Origin: Streptomyces sp. NBC_00569
GTDB lineage: Bacteria > Actinomycetota > Actinomycetes > Streptomycetales > Streptomycetaceae
NCBI RefSeq assembly: GCF_036345255.1
Contig: NZ_CP107783.1
Coordinates: forward strand, 5,812,001-5,876,000
Length of the DNA stretch: 64,000 bases
Reading direction: 5' to 3'
Every line of letters starts with the position of its first letter. The stretch's first letter is position 1. Both the position numbers and the translations under genes were made by a program. The notes beneath the pieces were generated by a model. It worked only from the letters and a program-made list of their open reading frames with translations. It was not told the origin of the DNA and ran no database searches. Below are positions 58,856 to 59,933 of the stretch, in pieces.

Positions 58856-58931
58856 GGGTGGCCCTTCGGCTTCGGATGCTGTGTGGGGTGGACATCCGCA
58901 GGATACCGGGGCGTTGTGGGCGCGAAATGGG

Positions 58932-58963
58932 GGCGGGGCCCGACCTGATGGTCGGGCCCCGCC
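58932..58963 (-). terminator. Terminator downstream of tRNA-Gln
   Basis: A perfect 14-bp stem (GGCGGGGCCCGACC / GGTCGGGCCCCGCC) with a 4-base loop lies 10 bases past the 3' end of the tRNA, before glmU. There is no T run. Confidence 0.85.
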
Positions 58964-58972
58964 TCATCTGTG

Positions 58973-59043
58973 CTCCCGGGGAAGGAATCGAACCCTCATT
59001 CAATGGACCAAAACCATTTGTCCTGCCATTAGACGACCCGGGA
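58973..59043 (-). tRNA. tRNA-Gln (anticodon TTG)
   Basis: On the minus strand the acceptor arms TCCCGGG / CCCGGGA, anticodon arm AATGG-TTTTGGT-CCATT (anticodon TTG, reading CAA) and T arm GAGGG-TTCGATT-CCTTC fold into a cloverleaf. The discriminator is G; CCA is not encoded. The gene begins 11 bases after the stop codon of the HTH/LAGLIDADG-like gene, so its promoter must lie inside that coding region or it is processed from a longer transcript. Confidence 0.95.
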
Positions 59044-59054
59044 TGGTTCGTCCG

Positions 59055-59933
59055 CTATGTCCGAATCTGACGATCCGTACCGCGCGCGGACAACACTATG
59101 CCGTACCACCAGCCTTCAATGCGACGGTACAGATCGGCCCCCTGGGGAACGCGCACGAGTAAGCAGCCGTGATAGTCCGCACCCACACGTTTGCGGTTGG
59201 TCTTCGGGTTGTGCTTTTTGAGGGAGGTCTTGCCGAACTGTGAGGGGTCGGCGCCGACCAGGGTGGCCCAGAACTTCTCGGCCGTCGCGATGTCGGCGGT
59301 CTCGTGGATCTGCACGTGGAACCGCAGTCGCTCCGGGGCGACTCCAAGGAGGCGGAGCCACGCCAGGTAGACCTGGATCATGTCCGGATCGCTGTTGACG
59401 AAGTCGACTCTTTCCTGACGGCGATGGGCCTTCGCCTTCGAGCCCTCGGACCAGTAGAGCCCGACTCCTACCAGGAACAGTTCGCGGTCGGACAGAACGC
59501 CGACCTCTTCGGTTGCTGCCTGCCTGGTCTCCTGGCGCCCCGCCTCCCGGCGCTGGAGGGTGGCTTCCCAGCCGCGCCTCGCGATCGCCGAAGCTGCCTC
59601 GCGGGTGCGCTTGCGTTCAGGCTTCGGCAGATCCCGTACCCAGAGCGAGATCGAACCCTTCGAGCATCCGAGCTCGACCTGGATCTGGTCGTACGTCCAT
59701 CCCTGGAGTCGTAGCTCTCGGGCGCGGTTCCGAAGGTCGTCCTTCGCGTTCGGGCGCTTCGTCCACTCAGGGGCGGGTTCGCCATCGAGCAGTCGGTTGA
59801 GGAGGTCGTTGTTGTCGACGCGGAGGCGGTCTCTGATCTGGCGGCGGCTGAGACCCTCGCGTCGCAGCGCAATCGCCCGCTCCCGCAACCGCTCGAAGTC
59901 GGCGTACTTGCCTGTGCTCTGTGTCATAGGCAC
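59055..59933 (-). CDS. Double helix-turn-helix protein with LAGLIDADG-like domain
   Basis: This 292-residue protein is of unknown function. Residues about 16-48 and 67-100 look like two resolvase-type helix-turn-helices (LRREGLSRRQIRDRLRV; LRLQGWTYDQIQVELGCSKGSISLWVRDLP). Residues 110-145 are a charged linker. From 151 the sequence has a LAGLIDADG-like pattern: LFLVGVGLYWSEGSK (152-166, with Glu where the nuclease motif has its acidic residue), then VDFVNSDPDMIQVYLAWLRLLGV, a IHETADIATAEKFW segment, a Lys-rich loop and CLLVRVPQGADLYRRIEGWWYGI. This arrangement recalls homing-endonuclease or WhiA-like folds. It sits directly upstream of tRNA-Gln. Whether it cuts DNA is not known; one visible acidic motif may mean a dimer or a binding-only protein. 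Confidence 0.7.
   Translation of the reverse strand: MPMTQSTGKYADFERLRERAIALRREGLSRRQIRDRLRVDNNDLLNRLLDGEPAPEWTKRPNAKDDLRNRARELRLQGWTYDQIQVELGCSKGSISLWVRDLPKPERKRTREAASAIARRGWEATLQRREAGRQETRQAATEEVGVLSDRELFLVGVGLYWSEGSKAKAHRRQERVDFVNSDPDMIQVYLAWLRLLGVAPERLRFHVQIHETADIATAEKFWATLVGADPSQFGKTSLKKHNPKTNRKRVGADYHGCLLVRVPQGADLYRRIEGWWYGIVLSARGTDRQIRT

Follow-up and report, generated by a model that had tools for sequence, protein, structure and literature searches.

A LAGLIDADG-like protein family with tandem helix-turn-helix units adjoins tRNA genes and is associated with a hypervariable tRNA-Gln in Streptomyces

The genome of Streptomyces sp. NBC_00569 contains a gene for a nuclease-like protein directly before its tRNA-Gln(TTG) gene. 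The locus lies in a 64,000-nucleotide stretch of DNA, the whole of which is called the window here. The ORF list of the window gives a 292-codon ORF on the minus strand (59055..59933) with a GTG start; in most aligned homologues translation begins at M3, the ATG at 59927, which is likely the true start and leaves 290 codons. ARAGORN placed the tRNA-Gln(TTG) gene at 58972..59043, downstream on the same strand and 11 bases (59044-59054) from the stop codon of the ORF. The span assigned in the initial annotation (58973-59933) marked the right locus but ended one base short at the low end of the tRNA. Downstream of the tRNA lies what we take to be glmU and upstream of the gene a divergent, presumably histidine kinase-like ORF, both named from a reading of their translations. 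The gene has one copy in the 10.3-Mb genome, whose 69 tRNA matches include a single tRNA-Gln(TTG), that of the window, and two tRNA-Gln(CTG) elsewhere. A GC-rich inverted repeat found by eye between the tRNA and glmU (58932..58963, minus strand) is a possible terminator without a T run; a terminator scan did not report it.

The protein had been described from its letters as a double helix-turn-helix (HTH) protein with a LAGLIDADG-like C-terminal domain, and structure prediction agreed with both parts of this description. An AlphaFold2 model built from an 87-sequence alignment (mean pLDDT 93.2) showed two HTH units followed by an alpha/beta C-terminal domain. The first HTH (residues 13-48; 59790..59897, minus strand) consists of predicted helices 13-25, 30-37 and 42-48 and gave no significant Pfam match of its own; the second (residues 65-99; 59637..59741, minus strand) matched Pfam HTH_23 (E 3e-7) and TrpR-like folds. 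The HTH part is the most conserved portion of the protein (median dN/dS 0.12). The C-terminal domain (residues 146-284; 59082..59498, minus strand) has a predicted LAGLIDADG fold with one motif per protein. The family profile matched I-DmoI at E 0.007, and a residue-level second look at the structural matches placed I-DmoI entries on top, with I-Tsp061I and E-DreI close behind. Pfam LAGLIDADG_3 matched 16 of the 87 alignment members at E<=1 (best 0.0014) and did not match the window protein itself. A LAGLIDADG-type helix with an acidic residue is present, E163-G164 following the conserved helix. E163 (59445-59447, minus strand) aligns with I-DmoI E117 and K166 (59436-59438, minus strand) with I-DmoI K120. 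Both residues are invariant in 81 of 81 Streptomyces copies, and E163 occurs in at least 90% of 26 and of 87 diverse members, one member (L122) having D.

No confident unrelated fold emerged from the structure searches. An earlier AlphaFold2 model, made with 20 close homologues (pLDDT 72.5) and superseded by the 87-sequence model, gave no LAGLIDADG entry among the 50 Foldseek matches listed. With the 87-sequence model, the top Foldseek match by E-value was the OmpA-like YfiB/MotB fold (E 0.002, TM 0.2, rmsd over 6), which was discounted, as LAGLIDADG was favoured by the profile and also by the second look at individual residues. A Foldseek search of viral structures with the model returned nothing at E<=0.001.

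The neighbouring tRNA proved to be a constant companion of the gene. In the genus, tRNA-Gln(TTG) is the next gene on the same strand in all 110 retrieved loci, which comprise the best 30 from a search of 199 genomes and the best 80 of 388, with some species in both sets and one record titled [Kitasatospora] papulosa; for a randomly chosen position of this genome, the probability that a tRNA lies within 150 nt is about 0.0025. The gene was matched in 12 of the 17 sampled genera of the family, Streptomyces included, and the same tRNA follows on the same strand in 20 of 20 retrieved sister-genus loci (the best 20 of 23 other-genus matches). Among the other-genus loci (L324-L326, L328-L334), several matches begin at residue 51-63, which suggests forms without the first HTH.

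Elsewhere in the phylum, 30 of the 35 places examined adjoin a tRNA: 22 of 22 (L116-L138 without L118) and 8 of 13 further places. Matches were obtained in 93 of 396 genomes, and the 35 non-Streptomyces places are those that cover the LAGLIDADG part or score well, weak matches, mostly confined to the HTH part, being left out. Four of the misses (L213, L214, L215 and L217) lack a tRNA over the stretch examined, and the fifth (L212) runs off its contig. With loci treated as independent and tRNA density inflated, the chance of 30 in 35 is about 1e-58. As a rule the tRNA follows the gene on the shared strand, at a spacing of 6-36 nt in most loci of the genus, and in six loci the stop codon of the gene is T8-A9-G10 of the tRNA itself; gene and tRNA are convergent in L122, L124 and L210 and divergent in L136 and L206. 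These results support the fixed tRNA association considered in the initial annotation; the scattered homologues lacking one that it had named as a refuting result were not what was found.

In a maximum-likelihood tree, 33 members group according to the identity of their tRNA (Asn 11, Gln 9, Lys 7, Thr 2, Glu 2, Pro 1, Met 1), and the tRNA types require six changes, which is the minimum; the Gln group has weak support (93/60). The genomes G507 and G249 have two members each, at two different tRNAs. The tRNA link is therefore a trait of the family and not due to chance, and each protein clade keeps to one tRNA. Some loci showed further features. A tRNA-Met(CAT) lies near Asn-type members in L123, L125, L127, L131 and L212, either upstream in opposite orientation or just downstream. 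The Thr-type members L134 and L208 sit inside small tRNA clusters. L213, L214 and L215 hold longer relatives (open frames of 358-567 aa; profile E 1e-16 to 1e-18) with no tRNA nearby, possibly a sister family.

The gene itself is often missing from its place. Among 199 genus genomes, 83 gave a near full-length match (beginning no later than residue 20 and ending no earlier than residue 275), 45 gave pieces only and 71 gave none, so that the gene is broken or unmatched in 116. Such a presence/absence polymorphism at one site is what is expected of a free-standing homing endonuclease. Thirty genomes without an intact gene were inspected (19 of the 20 listed without a match, of 71 in all, and 11 with pieces), and tRNA-Gln was found upstream of glmU in 27. 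A GCATAGT box stands 53-62 nt before the tRNA in 26 of these 27 loci, and in all 26 the DNA before the box, read in the frame of the gene, still encodes variants of YRRIEGxWYGIV, which suggests an ancestral gene that was lost many times. In L199 and L202 (G089 and G043), tRNA-Gln-like matches lie about 7-8 kb from glmU and do not adjoin it, an arrangement that the sequences indicate to be an insertion or rearrangement between the two.

In intact genes the box translates as Gly-Ile-Val. Of 73 loci with Ile at position 279, 70 use the rare codon ATA there, and the remaining Ile positions of the 81 genes together contain ATA only six times. Relative synonymous entropy is 0.54 for residues 268-281 and 0.77 for residues 1-264. 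In the window, the gene 3' end with low synonymous variation (residues 268-281) occupies 59091..59132 on the minus strand and is the part retained when the remaining gene is lost; the -10-like box, which includes the ATA codon, lies at 59095..59101 (minus strand) and starts 58 nt upstream of the tRNA. The box as printed here is present in 13 of the 20 sister-genus loci. The simplest reading is that the tRNA promoter probably lies inside the coding 3' end. A generic sigma-70 scan recognised no promoter site, and the promoter claim thus rests on conservation. The proposal in the initial annotation that the tRNA is transcribed from within the gene gains support from the Ile279 codon and the retained box, that is, from conservation and not from a mapped transcript.

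tRNA genes normally change very slowly. The linked tRNA-Gln, by contrast, occurs as 45 alleles in 80 loci (the 80 best of 388 plus the window, minus one locus without glmU), with a mean pairwise distance of 0.28 compared with 0.151 for the GlmU protein; Streptomyces species thus differ more in this tRNA than in GlmU. The anticodon arm is its most variable part. The allele of the window, designated type A, differs strongly from the other tRNA-Gln types compared, and as a query it matched in 5 of the 30 genomes without an intact gene, whereas the control tRNAs of the same sample were conserved: tRNA-Ala(CGC) was found in 30 of 30 genomes at 92-100% identity and tRNA-Gln(CTG) in 30 of 30 at 90-100% best identity. 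Where relatives in the same class are free of the gene, distances between their tRNA-Gln(TTG) sequences are 0-0.097 inside four genera and average 0.143 across 14 genomes from three families; a TTG tRNA-Gln was obtained from only 14 of the 20 such genomes, so that the most divergent ones may have escaped. The gene-less Streptomyces sample, in which gene remnants are present, nevertheless retains a tRNA-Gln diversity of 0.206. A comparison of type A with phages gave 31 records, the best listed being 82% identical (Caulobacter phages), and a source of the allele was not found among them.

Comparison of closely related species showed how the tRNA changes. In the sister species L065 and L088, identity is about 89-99% in glmU and the HTH part and mostly 60-80% from the LAGLIDADG part through the tRNA. 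The same mosaic was seen in L061/L087 and L064/L052, with identity down to 53%. Nine profiled pairs, picked because they differ, put the limits of exchange, counted from the start of the tRNA, at roughly -600 and +110 to +130. Of 17 reciprocal nearest pairs, 8 show a change in both the LAGLIDADG half and the tRNA and 6 in neither; 2 show one in the tRNA only and 1 in the LAGLIDADG half only (Fisher p 0.015). Between sister species, the LAGLIDADG half is thus exchanged jointly with the tRNA, in a single cassette of about 0.7 kb. The mosaic pairs display the co-conversion expected of intronless homing, the HTH half often staying in place. The equivalent of the cassette in the window (LAGLIDADG half, gene 3' end, tRNA and trailer) spans 58931..59643 on the minus strand, limits that are approximate and transferred from pairs of other species.

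The association is seen in the C-terminal half. When nearest neighbours from other species are taken by windows of that half (141 to 300), 27-39% of them have the same tRNA allele, compared with 13% at random and 10-14% for windows within the first 100 residues. In the C-terminal tail (281 on), which has few columns, sharing is 0.14, with no excess, and protein distance correlates with tRNA distance (r 0.53). Physical linkage alone could yield this pattern. Nuclease and allele are associated within Streptomyces and not across genera, where the most similar LAGLIDADG domain is no guide to the tRNA allele. Similar alleles recur across genera (L316 and L061, L326 and L068, about 3% apart); 7 of 27 gene-less loci have an allele in common with gene-bearing loci, and 21 of 80 gene-bearing loci have one in common with a gene-less genome. 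The lack of prediction across genera and the alleles common to gene-less genomes speak against a strict match of nuclease and tRNA allele.

We propose, with a probability of roughly 0.5, that the family consists of free-standing proteins, akin to LAGLIDADG homing endonucleases, that have specialised on tRNA genes, and that their transfer brings about replacement of the tRNA as well. Intronless homing of this kind accounts jointly for position, loss, exchange and the conserved active site. The HTH units would dock on the locus, and the single-motif LAGLIDADG domain, presumably acting as a dimer, would cut, in genomes with another allele, the matching tRNA gene or its flanking sequence. Homologous repair of this putative cleavage would copy the donor cassette, the nuclease half together with the variant tRNA. 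With a working tRNA arriving alongside the nuclease, an essential single-copy tRNA gene could serve as homing site with no intron; with the tRNA promoter in the nuclease 3' end, loss of the gene would have to spare that end. As a guess, a plausible target would be the anticodon arm, which forms an inverted repeat and varies most. A stronger version is a 'home-and-rescue' drive that cuts the essential tRNA gene of rivals and delivers a resistant, recoded tRNA in the same 0.7-kb cassette, an arms race of alleles driving the hypervariability and clades having arisen for Gln, Asn, Lys, Thr, Glu and Pro tRNAs. We consider this self-protecting version, with a stable one-to-one lock between nuclease and allele, rather doubtful in view of the mismatch across genera and the alleles found in gene-less genomes. 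A nuclease family tied to tRNAs would explain the fast change of the tRNA. If so, it would place a free-standing homing system on the chromosomes of bacteria instead of in phages and would show a selfish gene living off an essential gene without an intron, and its many natural LAGLIDADG domains, with their candidate targets, would lend themselves to studying how specificity evolves. A literature search, mostly outside subscription journals, found no description of the family or its tRNA link.

The same observations can be read differently. The protein might be a catalytically dead regulator of the tRNA and of itself in a shared transcription unit, the tRNA varying as binding site and protein co-evolve. 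Conservation of the HTH part and of the gene 3' end as DNA would fit such a role, for which WhiA, an HTH and LAGLIDADG regulator that lost its catalytic residues (PMC3781837), is a precedent. However, the invariant acid and lysine are unlike WhiA, box and tRNA remain in those inspected of the many genomes that have lost the gene, and the HTH half does not follow the tRNA allele. A WhiA-like regulator thus accounts for HTH conservation and not for kept catalytic residues together with frequent loss, and we consider it unlikely. For the same reasons, the 'domesticated' enzyme suggested in the initial annotation is not supported in the WhiA sense. The other origin suggested there, the residue of an integrated element, found no direct backing: the window protein and its relatives gave no match in collections of phages, plasmids and viral contigs.

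About equally improbable is that the tRNA diversifies for another reason, such as tRNA-cutting toxins or phage, and that ordinary recombination drags the upstream gene along for a few hundred bases. This would agree with an allele association that is seen in the C-terminal half and not in the first 100 residues, with alleles common to gene-less genomes and to genera without matching nuclease domains, and with the diversity of the gene-less sample; yet it leaves unexplained the separate clades beside different tRNAs, the conserved tRNA-Gln(CTG) and tRNA-Ala of the same genomes and the conserved tRNA-Gln(TTG) of gene-free genera. Some LAGLIDADG proteins are maturases, and by this precedent the protein might bind the nascent tRNA or its leader and aid processing or folding of an unusual tRNA, as the shared strand, the short spacing in most loci and the probable co-transcription would allow. 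The convergent and divergent loci and the type A tRNA kept in 5 of 27 loci with a broken or absent gene speak against such an RNA-level role, which appears very improbable.

Among known systems, I-DmoI resembles the present protein in the fold of its C-terminal domain, its motif and the positions of E117 and K120. I-DmoI carries two LAGLIDADG motifs and is intron-encoded, whereas the present protein has one motif and N-terminal HTHs and lies beside an intact tRNA with no intron. Polymorphic toxins have a conserved N-terminal half and a variable C-terminal nuclease half that is swapped together with the adjacent immunity gene; the present family likewise exchanges its variable nuclease half together with a neighbouring gene, but this gene encodes a tRNA instead of an immunity protein and would have a putative protective role. 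WhiA also combines an HTH with a LAGLIDADG-like domain and occurs in Streptomyces; we know of no tRNA link for it. The window protein has no WhiA-type model among its Pfam matches at E<=1, and the model does match another gene of the same genome. WhiA carries its HTH C-terminally and has a degenerate catalytic site (PMC3781837). With N-terminal HTHs and E163 and K166 retained, the window protein was not assigned to the WhiA family.

SegF, SegG and SegB of phage T4 are free-standing homing endonucleases that act by intronless homing, and SegB lies between tRNA-Arg and tRNA-Ile in T4-like phages (PMC2988022, PMC13096335). The present family resembles the Seg enzymes in having a free-standing nuclease gene beside its supposed target and co-conversion of flanking DNA, and SegB in its tRNA neighbourhood. 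The Seg enzymes are phage-borne and of GIY-YIG or HNH type; the present family is of LAGLIDADG type, on bacterial chromosomes, and, unlike them, is fixed before host tRNA genes with clades specific for one tRNA. LAGLIDADG enzymes have also been described from rRNA insertion sequences of CPR bacteria (PMC11270868), a group in which relatives of the present family occur as well (P0172 and P0227 of Patescibacteria). The Thr-type protein of L134 resembles Patescibacteria proteins.
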